Shown one piece after another: positions 1 to 42,322 of a stretch of 64,000 nucleotides of DNA. Within the stretch, counting starts at the first letter, position 1. Each line of letters opens with the position of its first letter. The notes beneath the pieces are model-generated. The model saw only the letters and a list, made by a program, of their open reading frames with translations, was not told where the DNA came from and made no database searches. A program made the position numbers and the translations under genes. The stretch is from Halichondria panicea (lineage: Eukaryota > Porifera > Demospongiae > Suberitida > Halichondriidae), in NCBI RefSeq assembly GCF_963675165.1, contig NC_087383.1:2634979-2698978 (forward strand). The letters are read 5' to 3'.

Positions 1-1478
1 GTAGCTGTTACCTCCCCCTCAATGCTTCCATCATCGTTAATTGCTTCCTTTCTGACAACCACTCCCTCCCAACATCCAACCACGGGATATTCACCACAGT
101 TGTCCAGAGCTCTCTCAAGAGATACCTCAAGGAGAAGTTGGGGAAGACCACTCCAGTGGGAGACATCACATCCCCAGACTCACTGCCCTCGGAAATTAGA
201 ACACAGACCGTACAAATGTGTCAACTTGCATATCATGGGATTGAACAAAATAAAGCGACATTTACTGATGGTGATTTGGCTGCTCTTTGCATTCCGAAGG
301 AGATTTCAAACGTTGGATTATTACAAACTGTTCCCAGTATCATTAGCGATGGTGATCTGGTTTACTACTGCTTTCTCCACCTGTCTATTCAAGAGCTACT
401 GGCAGCAATCCACATCTCTCTCATGCCTCCCAAGCAACAAATTTCTGTATTCCAGAAGCTCTTCGGGAATCCTCGATTCAGTGCAGTCTTCCAGTTTTAT
501 GCTGGTATCACCAAACTGAGAACTAGTAGACCAATCCTCAGCTTGCTACCTCGATTCTTGTGTCCAGTTCCAGCCACTGTTTTTGATCTGGTCAGAAAGG
601 TTGTCAAAAATAAGCCGACGATCTTTTTGTTGTCCCTCATCAATTGTTTGTACGAAGCTGAAGACTCGCGACTGTGTGTGTTTGTGGCTAATCTTCTTAA
701 TCACAATCTAGATCTTGATCGCACTACAATGAATCCTATTGACTGCCTCTCTGTTGGATATTTCGTATCAGCTTGTTCCAACACCAGTAATGGATTCACA
801 CTTAGCCTCAACAATTGCTCTATTGGTGACCAAGGCTGCAAATTTCTGGCCCGAGGACTCTCCAAGTGTCCCAACTCTAATAATTATATTCCTACAGCAG
901 GGATACACATTGCCGAGATTATCGAGAACACTAGTTCAATATCTGAATTGGATTTGTCTAATAATGACATTGGTAACAGTGGACTTTGCACACTCTGTGA
1001 GGCCTTCTCAACGAACATATCATTAAAGCGCCTGGACCTGCGCAATTGCTCACTAACAATATCAGACGACAATGGAGCTGCCCTCTATCAACTTCTGAAT
1101 ACAAACAATTCCCTCGTACGTCTTGATTTGTCATTTAACACAGTGACTAGCTGTCGTCACATTGCTGCTGGACTTGCAGTCAATAAGACTCTGAGAACAT
1201 TGGGCTTGGGTGTCTGTGAACTGACTGATCAGAGTATCGAGGAGCTATCAACTGGACTGATCAACAAGATTGAAACACTGCACATATGGGGTAATTACTC
1301 AATAACAGAAGATGGAATGAAGACGCTTGTCAGGCATCTAACCACCCACTGCTCTGAACTGACACTATTGGAGATACCCGGCCACCTACCATCCAGTATC
1401 AAGACAGTATTCAGGGACGCTAACAAAGAGAGGAAGAGAAATGGACTACCCGAGATTGTTGTGCGTAATCTCAATTAA
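1..1478 (+). CDS. NLR-A, 3' part of a NACHT-LRR receptor gene
   Basis: The gene runs in from the left edge; bases 1-2 complete a glycine codon, and 491 residues follow to the TAA at 1476-1478 with no break. It matches NLR-B from B residue ~399 onward: the winged-helix/NACHT-associated helices, then six or so ribonuclease-inhibitor-type leucine-rich repeats (ISELDLSNNDIG, LKRLDLRNC, LVRLDLSFN, LRTLGLGVC). NLR proteins sense intracellular danger signals through the LRRs and oligomerise through NACHT. The DEATH-like and Walker A parts lie outside the window. Compared with NLR-B and NLR-D the framework is almost unchanged while the exposed LRR beta-strand residues differ. An IQGAP-like last exon starts 452 bp downstream on the other strand. 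It may be functional or 5'-truncated; the window cannot tell. Confidence 0.88.
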   Translation, partial: SCYLPLNASIIVNCFLSDNHSLPTSNHGIFTTVVQSSLKRYLKEKLGKTTPVGDITSPDSLPSEIRTQTVQMCQLAYHGIEQNKATFTDGDLAALCIPKEISNVGLLQTVPSIISDGDLVYYCFLHLSIQELLAAIHISLMPPKQQISVFQKLFGNPRFSAVFQFYAGITKLRTSRPILSLLPRFLCPVPATVFDLVRKVVKNKPTIFLLSLINCLYEAEDSRLCVFVANLLNHNLDLDRTTMNPIDCLSVGYFVSACSNTSNGFTLSLNNCSIGDQGCKFLARGLSKCPNSNNYIPTAGIHIAEIIENTSSISELDLSNNDIGNSGLCTLCEAFSTNISLKRLDLRNCSLTISDDNGAALYQLLNTNNSLVRLDLSFNTVTSCRHIAAGLAVNKTLRTLGLGVCELTDQSIEELSTGLINKIETLHIWGNYSITEDGMKTLVRHLTTHCSELTLLEIPGHLPSSIKTVFRDANKERKRNGLPEIVVRNLN

Positions 1479-1929
1479 TAATTGATTGATTATTAATTGA
1501 GATTGATTGATATTCATACAGTTTTGACAATTGATTTTAATTAATTCTGCCATAATGCATTCAATGCATGACAATTTAAATGCATAGAGAAAAGCAGTGA
1601 AGTATTATATACTAGTATATATAATTATGTTAGACACTATTAAAACAAATGTTGTTAATTAATTACAACTTGTCAATAGCACAGCGATAACAAGGGCTTC
1701 TCCTTGAACAACACACAGACACACACACACACACAGTCAGCTTTACCGTATCCCTCGTGCGGCTACGCCTCGAGGCATAACAAGGGCTTCTCCTGGTAAT
1801 AATGATAAATGCTCACATGCACAGTAAATTGTCAATGAACACATGCAAGCAATTTGCTAGTGAAAATCCAATTTAACGCTCTGATGCCTTTTGTTCATAT
1901 AATTATGAGGAAGATGAGCAAATTAACGT
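1479..1929. other. intergenic spacer 3' of NLR-A
   Basis: AT-rich DNA built from TTAATTGATTGATTATT-type runs, a short (CA)n stretch and one copy of the dispersed motif at 1737-1782. The same spacer follows NLR-B, C1 and C2. No open reading frame or RNA gene is evident. Confidence 0.6.
1737..1782. repeat. dispersed motif following (CA)n
   Basis: A motif containing CCCTCGTGCGGCTACGCC and ending GAGGCATAA sits directly after a CA microsatellite. It recurs near 20108, 20190, 20278, 23128, 27597, 34537 and 46482, usually again after (CA)n, and a diverged form lies near 51400. It looks like the end of a short dispersed repeat; no tRNA-like promoter boxes were recognised. Confidence 0.5.
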
Positions 1930-2850
1930 TCACTTTAGCCCTCCCAAACATCTTCTAAACATCTTCATGATTGCCAGGCCCTCGTATTGCAGCTGAAGGA
2001 GGTCCTGTGTGGGGAGAAGAGAGGGCAGTGAAACACTTCAACTGGTATAAGACAAAGAATGCATGTATTCTACATAACACAAAATCATATTAGTACTCCC
2101 TTTATTGCTCCCCTCACCTGGAAGATCAGCTCCACCTTCTCTATCTGCCTGCCCAGGAAACGACCAGACACCTCAAACTTGCTCACATCCACTGACGTCA
2201 TCTTAAACACAACATTTCTGAACCTGGGGGAGTGTTAACATAGCGCTCAACGTTACACATAGAGGCATAAAATAAGTCAATAGCCTCACACTGAAATAGA
2301 TTAGTAGTAGAATCTGGACAAAGTACGTACAAGAGCAATAATATTAAGAGCAGATGTCGATGATTATCATGTTGTTTGATCATAGTAGAGGGATTCCCAG
2401 AATAGTACATCAATGACAAGAGACATACGAAGCTCTTAACATCAATACCGTGACACACCAATGTACGCAGGAATTGAAAGCATAATTATATTCTATTTAG
2501 TATATAGACAGCCCGTATTAAAGATCTAAGCACACAACACAAGTATGTTAGTATCTGCTATGCACTCTCCAGTACGTATGTGGAGACTTACAGAATGGGT
2601 GGGGCATATCTCCATGGACACTGATGCAGATGATTTGTTTGATCACGTCAGAGTACGCGTCAATACCCAGCTATCTCTCCGGGGAGTCCACTGTCGATGC
2701 CCACAGGAAGAACCCTCTGGGGGGGGAACAGTGAGAGTCATATTATGATTCAGTTCCGGGAATAAATGTCATAGAAAGTCACTAATTGACTCACATTTTT
2801 TCCAGCCGAGGCAAATGGAGCACAGCTATAGGTTACGTCTCTGTGGGGCA
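1930..2850 (-). pseudogene. IQGAP: IQGAP-like 3' end, copy 1
   Basis: Exons read on the minus strand. The last exon (1930-2004) encodes DLLQLQYEGLAIMKMF, the hallmark end of the RasGAP C-terminal (RGCT) domain of IQGAP scaffold proteins, but a short tandem duplication then shifts frame to an early stop. The penultimate exon (2118-2223) is intact with GT-AG borders and reads FRNVVFKMTSVDVSKFEVSG, matching the IQGAP segment before it. The exon at 2592-2716 is the GAP-domain exon (TVDSPER, stop, LGIDAYSDV) and carries an in-frame TAG. A degenerate remnant of the GSIAK exon lies near 2790-2845. IQGAPs bind Cdc42/Rac and actin. As a gene this copy is dead. Confidence 0.7.
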
Positions 2851-3147
2851 TGGAAAAATTGATTTACTGAAATTGTGTATCAGGTTTTAAGCAACTAATA
2901 AGGATTATCACTTATTGAGCGCACAATTCCCCGCCCACACACACCTGGTCAGTAGACAGCTGATTGCCCATCCACAACATTGAAGGATTTTATCGCAGCT
3001 ATGTACTTCATTGTACAGCTGCAAGGGGAGTGACGTGTGATACAGTGTGATTCAATGAAAGTCAGTACAACACAGTTAGTGTATGTTTACCAAAGAGGTA
3101 CATGAGATTGTTCTGACAAATCATTCTTGTACTCTCTAATACACTAA

Positions 3148-3319
3148 CAGGGTTTCATCTAGGATAACAAGTTGGGGGGGGGATTTGGGAGTGCGTAAGC
3201 GCAAGTGTTTGGCTATGCCCACTTAAAAAAAGTTGATTTAATACTAATGTGATGATGTCATTATTTTACAAGATTTGGGGGGGGGGGAAGAACCACCCCC
3301 CCTACTAGATGAAACCCTG
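3148..3319. mobile_element. 172-bp MITE with CAGGG termini
   Basis: Ends are inverted copies of CAGGGTTTCATCTAG; ACTAA flanks both sides (3143-3147 and 3320-3324) as a possible 5-bp target duplication. The interior holds G- and C-runs. A sister copy is at 35948-36117, and damaged copies lacking the right end occur near 21659, 28590 and 43760. No coding capacity. Confidence 0.6.
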
Positions 3320-3494
3320 ACTAACTGATACAGTACCAAAGATGCAACCTTTTACATGGCAAAATTAAAAACGGCCATTGTCAAAGTAATGTAGACGCAA
3401 TCGGCATCATGTATAAATTGTGTATTTGGCCTGGCCTAAGCCATATTCAGTACATACTATATAGCAGGTCATTTTCGTAGGTTATAACATTCGA

Positions 3495-3860
3495 AACAAA
3501 CAACGTCTACACACAGTAAGTGCAGTAGTAGTAGATCTAAGAGGTAGTCTAATGCTCAAGAATGATGGAACATCTTATATACATATAGTAGTCATCTGCA
3601 GAATTGTGTAGAGGAGATGTTTCACCATCTTTGAGCATTAGTTTACCTCTTAGATCTACTACTACTGCACTGCACTATACTGCACTTACTGTGTATATAG
3701 CTAGTAGGTATCTTCAAGACCAGCTAGCTCACTGACAGTTGACAAACTAATGCTCAAAGATGGTGGAACATCTCTACACAATTCTACTACTACTGCATGC
3801 ACTTACTGTGTATATAGTAGGTATCTTCAAGACCAGCTAGCTCACTGATAGTTGACAAAC
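3495..3860. repeat. clustered inverted repeats (AGATCTACTACTAC motif)
   Basis: A ~60-bp sequence around AGTAGTAGTAGATCTAAGAGG at ~3513-3575 returns inverted at ~3630-3690, and a third partial copy follows at ~3740-3860 with CTTCAAGACCAGCTAGCTCACTGA twice in direct orientation. Same arrangement near 36300-36655. No gene; probably a rearranged hairpin element. Confidence 0.5.
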
Positions 3861-3965
3861 ACTCTCTGGGACAAAAACCATTGTGTAGCTCTTACTTCAA
3901 TATTTTACAAACTTCCTTTATTTAGAATAATAGCGCATGCATTGCAGAATGCAGAGGCTGCAAAA

Positions 3966-5436
3966 TATGGTGGGCCGTTTGTTTCAAAATTCAAATGTTA
4001 CATTTTCATTCAAATCACAATACATTCATTCAAGATGTGCAATTTTAATTCAAGAGCATTCAAGATTATTCATTCAAGATTCAAGATTTTGATGGATGCA
4101 TAAACATGCATAATTTCAGATGACTTTAGCCACACTTTGTGGTTTTATTGCATGGTGTAGTTGTTTTAATTAACAGGAAATGGGGTTCACAATAATCAAC
4201 TCCCTCCCTCAGTAGTGGTAAGGTGATTCCCAAACCAGAAACATGACATTGATTGACGAAAATTAACAAGAGGTCAGGGGTTCGTTGCCGACCTTCGAGT
4301 TTTGAGCATTAAGCAAAGGACATCTTATAAATGTTGTGTTTTAATGACTGTATATGCATGCATGGCATGCATATCTTGAATAATTATTGTCGACTTGAAT
4401 GCATTAAAATCTTGAATGACAATTGCATGGTCTTGAATGGTCAGTGGATCTTTGGATCAATTTAAATTTATTTTGGGCAGAATTTCAAATCGATAGAAAT
4501 TTATGTATTTTTTGATTTTGAATATTTTGAAACTGCAAGAGTACATGCAAATGAGTGCATTCTATTTTCAATTCTTGAGGTCCTGAGTTTCGTGCAGAAA
4601 AAAGCAGTTTCATATTTTGCACCCACAGGGGTTAGCTTATAATGACCTTTGTACTCTAAGAAGCTGTGCACTTTATAGTCTGTTATAAAATCAGTATTAT
4701 GTGCACCTAGCTTGTATGCGTACAGGTTATGTTAACAGTTGTATCCCACCCTGATTGACAATGACAATTACACCCCCTGTCTGTATAGGTGTTCCAAGTA
4801 CCATGGCCAATAGATGAGTGTTCCCAGCATACAGACGGTACTATACATATAATCATACAGTTGTTCGATTGCACACACACACACACAATAATATCATAAT
4901 TTAATTGATCCTTCAACATTGAAATGTTTAATAATATTAATTATGTACAGTTAAGGAAGTACATTATTATATTATACATAGCAGAGTCGTGCAGTTGGCT
5001 AGCCTCGAGGAAGTGATTGGGATATCAAGGCTAGCAGTTGGCAAGGTTATATTCTGGCTATATTTAGCATTGCATTGGAGCATGGCTTCTCAAGAGTACA
5101 AAGGTCATTTTAAGCAAACCCTGTGGATGCTATAAGCGCTAGTGATGGTCAAAAATTGAAAATGCTTTTTCTGCACGAAACTCAGGACCAATTCTTCCTC
5201 AAGAAATTAAAAGTAGAATGCACTCATTTGCATGTACTCTTGCAGTTTCAAAATATTCAAAATCAAAAAATATATAAATTTCTATCGATTTGAAATTCTG
5301 CCCAAAACAAATTTAAATTGATCCAAAGATCCACTGACCTTGAATGAATACTGTATATGCATCTTGAATGAATGTATTGTAATCTGAATGAAAATATAAC
5401 ATTAATTTTGAATTTTGAAACAAACGGCCCACCATA
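3966..5436. mobile_element. 1.47-kb fold-back element with long inverted arms
   Basis: The outer ends are inverted copies of TATGGTGGGCCGTTTGTTTC. Further inverted matches follow inward: the attcaagat-rich stretch (3980-4090 against 5351-5420), the GATCAATTTAAATTT block (4453-4607 against 5165-5340) and the CCCACAGGGGTT/AACCCTGTGG region. No transposase is visible. The element recurs at 36764-38243 in the sister flank, so it was there before that duplication. Confidence 0.65.
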
Positions 5437-5736
5437 CACCATAGCAAAAACACATTGATTTTACAATGTAAAAGGGTGGGCCAGCTCAGCACAATTCAAA
5501 TAGCAATCAAAATTCCAGGCTCTTAAACGAATAGGACTATTATAATATCATTCAATGACAATTTAGAGAAAAGTAGCGAAGTACATAGTATGTTAGAACA
5601 TTAGGTCGTTAATTAATCAATTGCAACGTGTCAATAGTACATGCAGATGATATAAATAATTGAAGAATGCTCACATGCAATTGTCAATGAATACATGCAA
5701 TTTGTTAATGAAATACAATTTAACACTCTGAGGATT

Positions 5737-7397
5737 TTAAAAGTTCATGAGGAAGATGAGCAGATTAACATTCACTTTGGCCCTCCCAAACATCTTCATG
5801 ATTGCCAGGCCCTCGTATTGCAGCTGAAGGAGGTCCTGTGTGGGGAGAAGAGAGGGAAGTGAAACACTTCAACTGGTGTATAAGACAAAGAATGCATGTA
5901 TTTGTAAGACAAATGAATACATGTACTTACATACACCGTACAAGCATACCAACACTATACCTGACACAAGGCAGTAAACTTCTTGAACACTTTACGTACC
6001 TACCATCTACCTGTACACACACCCTCACCTGGAGGACCAGCTCCACCTTCTCTATCTGCCTGATGTGATCTCAAACACAACATTTCCGAATCTGAACCTG
6101 GGCGAGTAAGAAATAATGTTCACATAATTATAGCATAACTTTGCATAAGATCAAGGTCGTAGCAAGAGGTCAGGCTGGTCAGATTTTGGCCTAACCACTT
6201 TTTGCAGCTGGGTATAGTAATGGTCGTAAATATTGTAAGTGATAATGCGCATGCTGTTTTGGTGAGGAAAAGTGATGGCCTTTTTCTTAGGTAAAAAATT
6301 CACCACTGGATGCAAAAGTTCCAATAGTACAAAAACAGTTGACCTTTAATTGTAAGTTGGCCTGACCACTTTAAAGTTGCTTGCTATGCCCCTCCATGAA
6401 GATTGGGGCATAAAAATAAGTTAATATGTGACAGGCTCTGGGAAAACCAGACTATTGGAGCAGAATTTAGTATTGAGCTACAGCTAAATTTATGCCTACA
6501 GTATAAAATCTCAAGTTATTGGTGTATAAGTATCTACGGTCCTTCTACTACCTCTCTGTAAAATCTGATGCTCTAAATCCAACTCTTTCCATCGAAACGC
6601 TTTGTCTAAACTTTCGCTATTACCCCTAATTGAGCAATCTTTGAGAGCCGTTTTTCTCGATACATGTACTATATTTACGGCTTCGAGTTTCTAACGCGCA
6701 TAACTCGGGTATGAAACTAGGTATGTGAACACTAAGCATATCATTGTGTAGGCGATGCTCTGCTCTATCATTTGGTACATTAATCACAAAAATTTTAGTC
6801 TGCTCCAATAGTCTGGTTTTCCCAGAGCCTGTCACATATAGCCTCACACTGGAGGAATTGTTAGAGTCTAGATTAGTAGTAGAGTCTGAGCTTCAGTCAA
6901 ACAGTGGACAAAGTACGTACCAGAGCAATTAATGGCACATGTGATGATTATCATGTTGTTTAATAGAAGTATGCTAGTATAACGGCTACTCAAGTATACG
7001 GAGACTCACAGAGTGGGTGGAGCATATCTCCATGAACGCTGATGTATGGATGATTGGCTTGGTCACATCAGAGTACTTGTTGATACCCAGCCTTCTGTCC
7101 AGGGGGTCCACTGTCGATGCTCGCAAGAACTCTCTGTGGGGGGTACAATGAGTGTATGTATATTCATACCCTCTGCATGGCAACGAAAATAGCTAATTTG
7201 CAATTTAGATCATACGATACTTTAGTAGAAGGTAGAAACACACATGACCATCATCACATGACCATCATTCGTACATACACACTTTCAACTATTTGACCAC
7301 AAATTCAGTTCTGGTAATCACATTTCTTACTTGATTTCTTGAAGGCTTCCTGAGTGTACGGGTTCATTACTGACAGGGCAGCACTCTCAGCCTCAAA
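5737..7397 (-). pseudogene. IQGAP: IQGAP-like 3' end, copy 2
   Basis: The last exon (5737-5835) is open to its own stop and reads DLLQLQYEGLAIMKMFGRAK then VNVNLLIFLMNF, very close to the end of IQGAP proteins. The penultimate exon (about 6017-6096) has lost its middle (FGNVVFEITS joined out of frame to QIEKVELVLQ). The GAP-domain exon (7010-7133, 124 nt) is open: REFLRASTVDPLDRRLG, then INKYSDVTKPIIHTSAFMEI, aligning with the EYSDLVTLTKPVIYIS region of IQGAP. The upstream exon 7331-7397 reads FEAESAALSVMNPYTQEAF, the segment known as HLSIINEYL in IQGAPs. Good splice sites remain on three exons, yet the deleted exon makes a functional RGCT domain unlikely. Confidence 0.68.
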
Positions 7398-38243: not shown

Positions 38244-39663
38244 CACCATAGCAAAAACACATTGATTTTACAATGTAAAAGGGTGGGCCAGCTCAGCACA
38301 ATTCAAATAGCAATCAAATTCCAGGCTCTTATATCATTCAATGACAATTTAGATGAAAAGTAGCGAAGTACATAGTATGTTAGAACATTAGGTCGTTAAT
38401 TAATCAATTGCAACGTGTCAATAGTACCATAGAGATAGTAAAGGGAAGGGATTGGAAACACAGGGATTTCACGTGGCCCATGCGTGTCGCACCGGAAATT
38501 GACAGGAAGTTAATTTAATGGGAGGAGATTGGGGGAAAAGCTGCTTATTATAGATGCTGATCAACTACTTAGCTACTGTACATGTAGTTGCTCTGGTTGC
38601 TGCTGTACATCTGAATGACTGACATTTTTCTCTTTGCAAATACTTGAGTAGAGATTACACATTCTCAACAAACCTTGAAAATAACAAGGCATGCATTTAC
38701 AAAGAAATTAAATCTAGGAACTCGATAATTATTTATACTTTATGGTACTAGTACTAGGCACTGTTCATTATAATAGACTGCCTCATAACATTATGACTTT
38801 CACACAATCACACAATTTTGATGTTTACATAAAAATGTTTACAAACACAAAACATAATTTTTATGAGCCTGACGCCCTTTTAGGCAATGGTGTATTCTCG
38901 TCATCGGTCACTGTTTAGCTCTTGCAAAAGAATTTACTAATCATAATACATAACAGTGGGGTTATCATGTGTCCCTCCCCTCTGCCGTTGGCATAAAAGG
39001 GTCTTGGCAGATTTTCTGATTTTCTGAGTACCCCTGGGAAAAAATGTATGGGTAAGTTTGAATTAGTATATTTCCAAAACGATAAACGTTAGCAAGGAAA
39101 ATCTTTTCTTACTGCACATCGGGATCATTAAGCAACATGTAGAACTAAACAATAGTGATGTACAATTTATTGTTAACCAGTAGCTCCCCCGCAAAACAAG
39201 TTACTTTTGAATCCTTGTTTTCACACTTAAAAGTAAATATTCAACATTAAACAGCATAATGCTCAACTTGGCTATGCCTACTGCATATTTCAATGCTCCC
39301 TCTACACTCTGATCACTCTCAAGCAACCATGACTACTTCCTAGCTCAAGATATCCCCCCACAAAGTTTCTTACTTACCAATCTTAGCTAAATACATGTAA
39401 AACAGTGTAACATGGAGCTCTGATGATCAAATAAATGAGGTAAATGATGTAAACCATACATTTACTATGGATAATGTACATACAGGATAGCTCTGCCAGT
39501 GCTTACTGCAGTTTTCTTCACTTTCTTCTCTTTTGTCTTTGCATCTGGCTCGCAATCAATCGCAATCAATACTTGCGGAATGCAACACGCATGGTGTCAG
39601 AATTCTCTAGGGCAATACATTGGTCACCTGAGATGTTTCCAATCCCTCCCCTCTACCATAGAT

Positions 39664-40665
39664 CAGAGATACAAAAGAAAGGGGATTGGAAACGAAATTT
39701 TTACGAAATTTTTGCGTGAAGCATTCCGCGTTATAGGGCGTGGCTAAAACTACAAAGGATTATATTTATAGTCAGCATGCTCATTACCAGTCTTGACTGC
39801 TCTACAATGTGCTGTACATAGAAACAGTGAAATTGATCATTTTTAATGTTGATTTTTCTAAAAAGTAAAGAGAATTTAGCTCTAAAAAGTCGACTAAGCC
39901 ATGCAGCCACTATTACTAGACAAATAAATGCTATGCAAGAAGAAATAGCCTTTACTATGAAGTCGTAGGAGGGACAGGCCCGTGGTGTGTCTAAAAGTAC
40001 CGTATAGCGCGAAATTTTCGAGGCACTTATATTTCGTGGATTGGCCTCTAAAAGCCATTTCTTTGCACAATGTTCGCGGAATGACTGCTTACCGGAAGCC
40101 ACGCCTTTAAATATTTGCATGATAGCAGGTAATTCTTATTAACAAACACTTTTCGTGGACTTAATTTTCGTGTAGAATTCCAACCCACGAAATCCGCGAA
40201 AATTAAGCCCCTCGAAAATTTCGCGCTATACGGTATACTAAAGCAGTTTGAAGGACTATACTGCAAACGTTTATGAACAGTACAGCTTATTTATAGCATG
40301 AAGCCATTCTATGTAGCACTTAGATACATAATAACCAAGTCAAGCAATGTCCTTTGCTGTTTTGACTTCACAGGAGGGATAGAGAAAAGTTGACATAGAG
40401 TAATTCAAGCTAAACTCAAAAAAATTGGAAACAGAGTAAAGACAACGGACTTAGAGCTTGTCAGTGGTATAAGCTTACTTCTCTCAAGTATCTCCCAGGC
40501 CCTGAGTGATCTCTAGTGGATAGGAGAGCTAGAAACCAGGGATACAAAACTTTTCCATGTAATTATTTGCGAGCGCAATAATTACACGGAGTGCTTCACC
40601 GGATGTCAGTCCTTTTACATAGGGCGTGGGCGGTCGTTTCCAATCCCCTTTCTTTTGTATCTCTG
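39664..40665. mobile_element. E2: transposon inserted in the left TIR of E3
   Basis: A perfect 31-bp terminal inverted repeat starts CAGAGATACAAAAGAAAGGG and contains GGGATTGGAAAC. CATAGAT is duplicated at 39657-39663 and 40666-40672 (7 bp). 1002 bp, non-autonomous as far as seen. Confidence 0.9.
40000..40233. mobile_element. 234-bp TA-flanked MITE inside E2
   Basis: Ends are inverted copies of CCGTATAGCGCGAAATTTTC, flanked by TA on both sides (39998-39999, 40234-40235). TA flanks are typical of Tc1/mariner-type MITEs. This is the fourth nesting level. Confidence 0.8.
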
Positions 40666-42322
40666 CATAGATGTAGGAGAGAGGGATTGGAAACGGAAGT
40701 AGATTTCAATGTACTTCACATATGACCTCGATAAACATCCGCGCCTCGCTGAGGGCTAATCTATTCCCCAGGAACTTCGCGGGTAACTGAGATTATTGCA
40801 AATCTAGGATTTTATGAGTTGTCACTAGTATTCTGTCAAGTTTTCCAGTATCCAATGCAACTGTGCTTTATATAGATAGTGAATAACCATTATTCAAGCT
40901 CTATTTACCGTTGCAACTATCTTCTTCATTGAATTTAGGTAAGTTTAATCTTGTATTGTACACATTTATCCCTTTTTCTCTGAAATGATTAATGTTTAGG
41001 TCATAATTATACTTCAATATGCTTGTTGGTACATCATGTGGTATCACCCCAAGCCAAAGAAAATTAGTCATACATCAGCTGGTAAAATTTAGTGCTAGAA
41101 AAAAGTTGAATTAAAGAGCACCACTAAAGATCCCTTTTTTGGGAATACGCTAAGTTTTACAGAAATTTTAATTTTAGGCATACATTCCCTTATGATTGGT
41201 GATCACCCCAAAAGCATTAGTTTTGGATCAGGTGGATGTATAGCTTTTGTGTGCATGAATGTGTAGTCACCTATTTTTACCTCATAATTGTTATTGGCCC
41301 GGTAGTTAGATTGTGGTGAAGGGCCTGTAGGCCCGAGATATTTAACTACTACAAATGCTGTTTCATCTATATTTTATATAGCAATACCTCGCAAGCCAAA
41401 ACTTACTGAGTACGCTGAAGAAAAGAAGACAGAAGAATACCCCTCCTCTCTACACCCTACACGTCACCGCCCTCGTAAATGTTATCGGCTGTTCCGGCTA
41501 TATATACACCCTTGTATACCTCACCAGCTTCTCTCCATCTAAGACTGTCTGATTAGAGTGCTAAACTAATCATAATTATAGCTGTAATAATCATTTTTAT
41601 CGTGTAAGTTTTTGTTAATGTTGTTCGGTTTGATCCCACTCGTTTTACACTTAGAAAGCAACTGGCAGTGCTGTGGAGTGTTTTGCTGTCTCCAAGTGTA
41701 TGTAATTATACTTAATGAATTGGAAATTGAAATGTACGCTCACCAGCCTAGTATATATAGAAACTTCGTACAATTGATTCATCACAATTATTAAGAAAGT
41801 TACATGGTGTATTATGTATCTTGTCGTATGAATGATCATGGTTATTGCCTCAAACTAGTGGATCGACTTCTTGATGGTTTTTTTTTTCATTTAATTAAGT
41901 TGGCAGCAAAAGAGAAGCCTCTGACAGTCACAAATACATTCACAATTTCAGGGAACTAAGCATCCTCTGATGATTTTATATCTACTGTGAAACAAGTATC
42001 CAATACCACTAGCTCTGCACATTCTCCTTACTATTACCATGTACCAATGCACTGTTGATTGTACATGTGTCTCTTTCCCTATTCTTTCACCGCTTATGCA
42101 ATGAGTTTTCCTCATTTGAGGCAAGAAAAGAAGACAAGAAAGCGAGGCGCGGATGTTTTCCGAGGCCCTCTTCCGTTTCCAATCCCTCTCTCCTACATCT
42201 ATGCCTCTACTATCTATGATAGTACATGCAGATGATGTAAATAATTGAAGAATGCTCACACGCAATTGTCAATGAATACATGCAATTTGTTAATGGCAAT
42301 CCAATTTAACACTCTGAGGATT

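Follow-up and report, generated by a model that had tools for sequence, protein, structure and literature searches.

A nest of three related transposons in the sponge Halichondria panicea and their probable place in the P superfamily

The stretch of DNA analyzed here (the window) comprises 64,000 nucleotides of the genome of the sponge Halichondria panicea. At positions 38421-42225, three elements with inverted ends, designated E1, E2 and E3, lie nested one in another, and each is flanked by an exact 7-bp duplication. The window as a whole (1-64000) contains many segmental duplications of 92-99% identity. The features of the nest and of its empty site are as follows, none with an assigned strand.

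38421-38427, left target duplication of E1 (ATAGTAC), an exact pair with 42219-42225 and a single copy in the empty site at 5634-5640
38428-42218, E1 including what is nested in it; 1237 bp on its own; by its sequence matches an internally deleted P element
39650-39656, left target duplication of E3 (CCTCTAC), within the right terminal repeat of E1
39657-42203, E3 including what is nested in it; 1538 bp on its own, with perfect terminal repeats of 34 bp
39657-39663, left target duplication of E2 (CATAGAT), which is the first 7 bases of E3
39664-40665, E2; 1002 bp, with CAGAGA-form ends and perfect terminal repeats of 32 bp
39998-40235, a fourth element, within E2; inverted repeat starting CCGTATAGCGCG, with apparent TA flanks
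40666-40672, right target duplication of E2 (CATAGAT), an exact pair with 39657-39663
42204-42210, right target duplication of E3 (CCTCTAC), an exact pair with 39650-39656
42219-42225, right target duplication of E1 (ATAGTAC), an exact pair with 38421-38427
5634-5640, unoccupied counterpart of the E1 target (ATAGTAC), in the sister segment; the flanking segments share 98.0% and 94.5% identity

The anatomy described in the original prediction was recovered in full: E3 occupies the right terminal repeat of E1, E2 the left tip of E3, all three targets (ATAGTAC, CCTCTAC and CATAGAT) are duplicated exactly over 7 bp, and the empty ATAGTAC is present in the sister segment. The three are, as also proposed there, related elements with common ends and 7-bp duplications. 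Terminal repeats of E1 are imperfect (28 bp at 93%, about 30 bp). Among the matches listed, E3 had at least 31 others of more than 1 kb, and E2 end pairs spanned 738-776 bp in 31 of 36. The E2 of the window is longer than usual (1002 bp) because an inverted-repeat element of about 240 bp sits inside it at 39998-40235. This fourth element, absent from the earlier three-element account, has 45-nt inverted arms that are 89% complementary and a 244-bp match at another place, and the same end adjoins another E2 at 11.5 Mb on contig C1 (L106). Judged by its apparent TA flanks only, it may be Tc1/mariner-like.

Copies elsewhere on the same contig were informative about the order of insertion. At three other places (L044, L045 and L046), E1 and E3 are present with identical junctions and E2 is absent; L044 has one changed base and L046 reaches only the first part of E3. 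L045 and L046 therefore show the empty CATAGAT site of E2, and the three nests without E2 give the order E1, then E3, then E2. An assembly artefact might be suspected, since the window lies in a segmentally duplicated region with many self-matches of 92-99%. However, the duplications are exact at three levels, empty sites exist for both E1 and E2, and the junctions of E1 and E3 recur in the three further places, which makes an artefact extremely improbable.

The 131-Mb genome was searched for the ends of the family. The pattern CATAGAN{8,30}GGGATTGGAAAC matched 594 + 588 ends and the CAGAGA form matched 107 + 116, at least two of which were also in the CATAGA set; reversed control patterns of both forms gave 0 matches genome-wide. 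The borders of the nest thus recur, with about 1,400 exact ends in the genome (1403 as used in the expectation below). Bare core sites numbered 939 + 903 (1842), compared with 5 + 3 for the control. The idea that TATG-ended elements generally insert at CATAGAT tips was rejected, as TATGCATAGAT followed by the core occurred 7 times against about 5 expected by chance (a hand estimate). Two loci considered as autonomous members were also rejected, both being family elements with foreign sequence inside. In L041 (6 kb), a stop-free frame of 1332 residues lies inside a family element at 548-6538; by recognition only, we take it to be of gypsy type. In L042 (4 kb), an ORF for a DUF3504/phage-integrase-type tyrosine recombinase lies at 2634-3281 inside an E3-type copy and is presumably Crypton-like.

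Perfect 7-bp duplications with the consensus GTNNNAC flanked 39 of 43 insertions read at both ends, a set that includes E1-E3, four nested-looking rows that were chosen and many best matches of a similarity search, and is therefore not a random sample. The other four (L009, L013, L033 and L054) had unmatched 7-bp flanks, and no other clear duplication length was seen, so that the length observed in the nest held across the set. L033 is one base off and may have decayed, and L009, L013 (L013/L014) and L054 may be recombinants between copies. With strands pooled, the target read G 55%, T 78%, N N N, A 78%, C 55%. Columns 1, 2, 6 and 7 deviated from an assumed background of 60% A+T at p<1e-5, and columns 3, 4 and 5 showed no deviation from it at 0.05. 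Omitted from the set were the sister nests L044-L046 (same events), identical-flank copies of one event, L057 and the long copies on C4 and C9 (one end unread), single-end loci, the outer E2 of L104 (interrupted on its right flank by another element) and the C12 event described below.

Within the first 100 ends of the listing, two pairs (L039 and L040) lay 4.66 kb apart. These two elements are 99.9% identical, have the family ends and are flanked by exact duplications, ATGCAGC and GTTTTAC. In L040, three consecutive open frames matched the Pfam families PF21787 (5.2e-25), PF21788 (5.1e-13) and PF21789 (2.5e-8), all above curated cut-offs, which we take to be the P transposase core. The P-type transposase parts of the 4.66-kb element are RNase H N, the GTP-binding insertion and RNase H C. 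The P-element HTH family PF12017 was below the cut-off in L040 (E 0.033), and the best solved structure by phmmer, as a sequence match, was the Drosophila P transposase (6p5a, 3e-6).

Genome-wide, PF21787 gave 46 matches, eight of which share one score, L039 and L040 included; these copies are 98.4-100% identical to the L039 element over the stretch read. L066 is internally deleted, and the first 154 bases of L067 have no match to the L039 element. Exact 7-bp duplications flank all six long copies read at both ends (L039, L040, C1:14.87 Mb, C2, C3 and C12); in the long copies on C4 and C9 the left end was not found at the expected place and the right end only was seen. On C1 from 0 to 9.54 Mb, six of eight transposase matches had a listed family end no more than 3 kb away, but one of these ends seems to be part of a separate short element, and five of eight therefore remain. 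A long member with a transposase, which the original prediction had proposed looking for, is thus represented by the 4.66-kb elements. Its statement that no superfamily could be assigned was superseded by that transposase, which points to the P superfamily, where 7-bp duplications are documented (in Galileo). With the superfamily defined here by its catalytic core and not by THAP, the family belongs to it as judged from sequence, the transposase being that of the long element and not of E1-E3 themselves. The 7-bp duplications (39 of the 43 selected insertions, E1-E3 included), ends of about 30-34 bp and a deleted derivative (E1) agree with this placement.

An N-terminal THAP domain is stated for the P superfamily (PMC4168063), and no detectable match to it accompanies the sponge transposase. 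THAP (PF05485) had 15 matches genome-wide at E<=0.01, and the smallest distance between one of them and any of the 46 PF21787 matches was 13.3 kb. Neither a C2CH signature within a single frame of the transposase strand in 13 loci (the complete elements among them being L039 and L040) nor a THAP domain in four long first ORFs was found by these searches, which an intron-split or strongly diverged THAP would escape.

The long element also carries a conserved gene, ORF2 (516-1646 of L039), convergent with the P transposase. By tblastn (E<0.01), 14 of 22 other P loci have ORF2 alongside, a count from short flanks under which the other 8 may still carry it. It lay downstream on the opposite strand in 14 of 14, although near copies among these (L070/L084, L072/L087 and L109/L112) mean that independent lineages are fewer; at L077 and L078 it was detected via the extra flanks L109 and L112. 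Eight C-terminal pieces aligned to ORF2 at 38-61%, with invariant W...LL...W..RGFS, and the N-terminal part of ORF2 in L040 is split across two frames. ORF2 had no Pfam match above the cut-off (DUF7836, E 0.09), and searches of NCBIfam and PDB likewise yielded no match. It could be a DNA-binding or end-recognition partner. A bolder and rather doubtful proposal is that these are two-gene P elements in which THAP was lost or never present, the transposase beginning instead, as we read the frames, with a short basic N-terminus, and ORF2 (W..RGFS...W.E.YK) does or shares end recognition; the DNA-targeting module would then have been swapped, and landing in own ends and duplications would result from doubled targets. 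The titles and abstract openings of the literature searched made no mention of a two-gene or THAP-less P element.

The ancestry of E1 could be traced through its interior. Positions 200-264 of E1 match a piece of the second gene (73% identity, E 2e-4), pieces of the 3' part of the transposase gene lie within 423-572, and 616-1234 match the 5' flank of that gene; the transposase core is missing. The interior resembles the regions flanking the core in L077/L078, and against L110 an identity of 88% extends as far as the terminal repeat. Positions 791-1234 are 88% identical to the end of a P element on C14, which contains 28 of 28 bases of the E1 left terminal repeat and has a degraded tip. As the interior follows the P element in order without its core, E1 is, on these alignments, an internally deleted P element whose middle was removed.

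E2 had no interior match to 32 transposase loci, mostly read +/-1.5 kb around the match, and E3 had, besides its end matches, only a weak 38-bp match to one of them (L076, E 0.001). Neither tblastx against the 32 P loci nor Pfam on two window ORFs revealed any coding remnant in E2 or E3. It is by their ends and duplication length only that we would link E2 and E3 to the P family. Dada-like elements make duplications of 6-7 bp, and an unseen non-P transposase, such as a Dada-like one, that makes a 7-bp stagger might have moved E2 and E3, their P-like ends having arisen by chance or capture; interiors almost devoid of homology to the transposase loci would suit such an origin. However, the 30-bp end pattern and the core are common to E1, the long P element and E2/E3, the duplication length (7 bp) and target motif are the same, and the part of the genome read showed no further autonomous element bearing these ends. 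We consider a transposase of another superfamily very unlikely and favor mobilization of E2 and E3 by the P-type enzyme.

The ends of the Drosophila P element begin CAT, and we know of no second gene in that element. It is described as having 31-bp terminal repeats, 8-bp duplications, THAP and internally deleted copies (PMC7776569). On that description, the sponge family resembles it in its short terminal repeats, deleted copies and transposase sequence, but differs in having 7-bp duplications and no THAP match. Zebrafish THAP9 / Pdre2 P-like elements share with the sponge family ends starting CATA and internally deleted copies (PMC10983969, PMC7776569); their 13-bp ends, 8-bp duplications and THAP-bearing transposase all set them apart from the sponge family. 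Galileo, a member of the P superfamily in Drosophila, has documented 7-bp duplications (PMC4168063, PMC2775673), a palindromic target preference, GTANTAC (PMC4168063), and chimeric copies with unmatched 7-bp flanks (PMC3573991). The likeness covers a P-type transposase, 7-bp duplications, a palindromic consensus, non-autonomous copies and copies with unmatched flanks. Between GTANTAC and the GTNNNAC found here, the 7-bp length and outer bases agree, but the inner TA is unmarked in the sponge. Galileo is further described as having long terminal repeats and a THAP domain (PMC4168063, PMC3573991, PMC2775673, PMC3688188), whereas E2 and E3 have repeats of 32-34 bp and THAP was not found.

The original prediction proposed that the family prefers its own termini. 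A search for oppositely oriented cores lying 1-31 bp beyond an end gave 18 pattern matches at 13 places. Places with identical junctions look like copies of one event, and raw counts therefore overstate events; merging strand duplicates, identical-junction places and sister nests left about 8, the identical-junction places being assumed to be segmental copies from their junctions, without flank comparison. Uniform insertion would predict 0.30 (1403 ends, 921 cores per orientation), giving P(8 or more) of 1.4e-9. A control interval 101-131 bp outside the ends contained 1 match, and a same-orientation core within 31 bp outside an end was seen once. Three of the events are E3 in E1 (C7), E2 in E3 (the window) and E3 in an E1-type repeat (C12). 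Four are back-to-back pairs with tips exactly 7 bp apart (C1:11.12 Mb, C1:15.20 Mb, where the outer tip is shortened, C7:6.73 Mb and C9), and a pair on C14 has 9 bp between tips. In these four of the eight, which abut at exactly 7 bp, the neighboring duplication, and not the terminal repeat, seems to have been the target used. The back-to-back pairs would share one duplication, their far ends lying outside the stretch read. The proposed preference thus holds as an enrichment, but not as a strong one: such events make up about 8 of some 700 insertions (about 1%), and in none of 28 distinct flanks sampled from C1 0-5 Mb did a family core lie in the 60 bp outside the end.

Individual sites were used repeatedly. 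In the C12 event, GTAGAGG lies on both sides of E3 in a left-end repeat of E1 type; with the nest in a right repeat, E3 therefore used the same 7-mer twice. E2 is inserted in E2 at GTGAAGC at two places with the same flank (C1:2.6 Mb), and an E2 copy at 2584427 with that outer flank has the usual 766 bp and lacks the inner E2. E2 in E2 at GGTGAAG occurs at two places with differing outer flanks (C1:11.5 Mb and C8), which could be one composite that moved; at least two E2-in-E2 events are therefore evident, using one 8-bp stretch at least twice with a 1-bp offset. E2 also lies in the interior of E1 at C1:7249204, with GTAAAAT on either side (E1 match recognized by eye).

Local hopping or duplicated segments, instead of target choice, could also place elements in family ends. 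Junctions are identical at C7:6730489/6823734, at three places on C9 and in the C7 sister nests, and local hopping is described for Drosophila P (PMC7776569). Nevertheless, the events left after collapsing, about 8 against 0.3 expected, fall on five contigs. The same 7-mer of E1-type repeats was taken twice by E3, in a right and in a left repeat, and E2 struck the 8-bp stretch at least twice at the offset noted; local hopping alone would not explain the single match in the control interval. We thus regard hopping or duplication as an unlikely source of the excess, though one deserving some weight. The excess would come instead from target-motif matches in or beside the ends, since each insertion presumably duplicates a used target and so adds motif matches.

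Taken together, E1, E2 and E3 are very probably non-autonomous cut-and-paste members of the P superfamily, moved in trans by the P-type transposases of longer elements that have the same ends. The transposase would bind ends of the form CAKAGA...GGGATTGGAAAC, excise the element and attach it to the two strands of the target at points 7 bp apart, with palindromic GTNNNAC sites preferred, and gap filling after joining would produce the 7-bp duplication. E1 entered an ordinary site, E3 later a 7-mer of the E1 terminal repeat, and E2 then the tip of E3. We infer both the mobilization in trans, above all of E2 and E3, and the 7-bp staggered joining.

Most of this is ordinary transposon biology in a well-populated family; what may be new is the layout of two genes without THAP, together with the excess of own-end insertions measured here. 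A family whose core sites number about 1,800 in the 131-Mb genome is now tied to the P superfamily. Its nests form a natural record of target choice, with empty sites, repeated use of one 7-mer and a Galileo-like palindromic motif. If confirmed, a transposase without THAP and with a conserved partner gene would make the role of THAP in P transposition testable by natural comparison.
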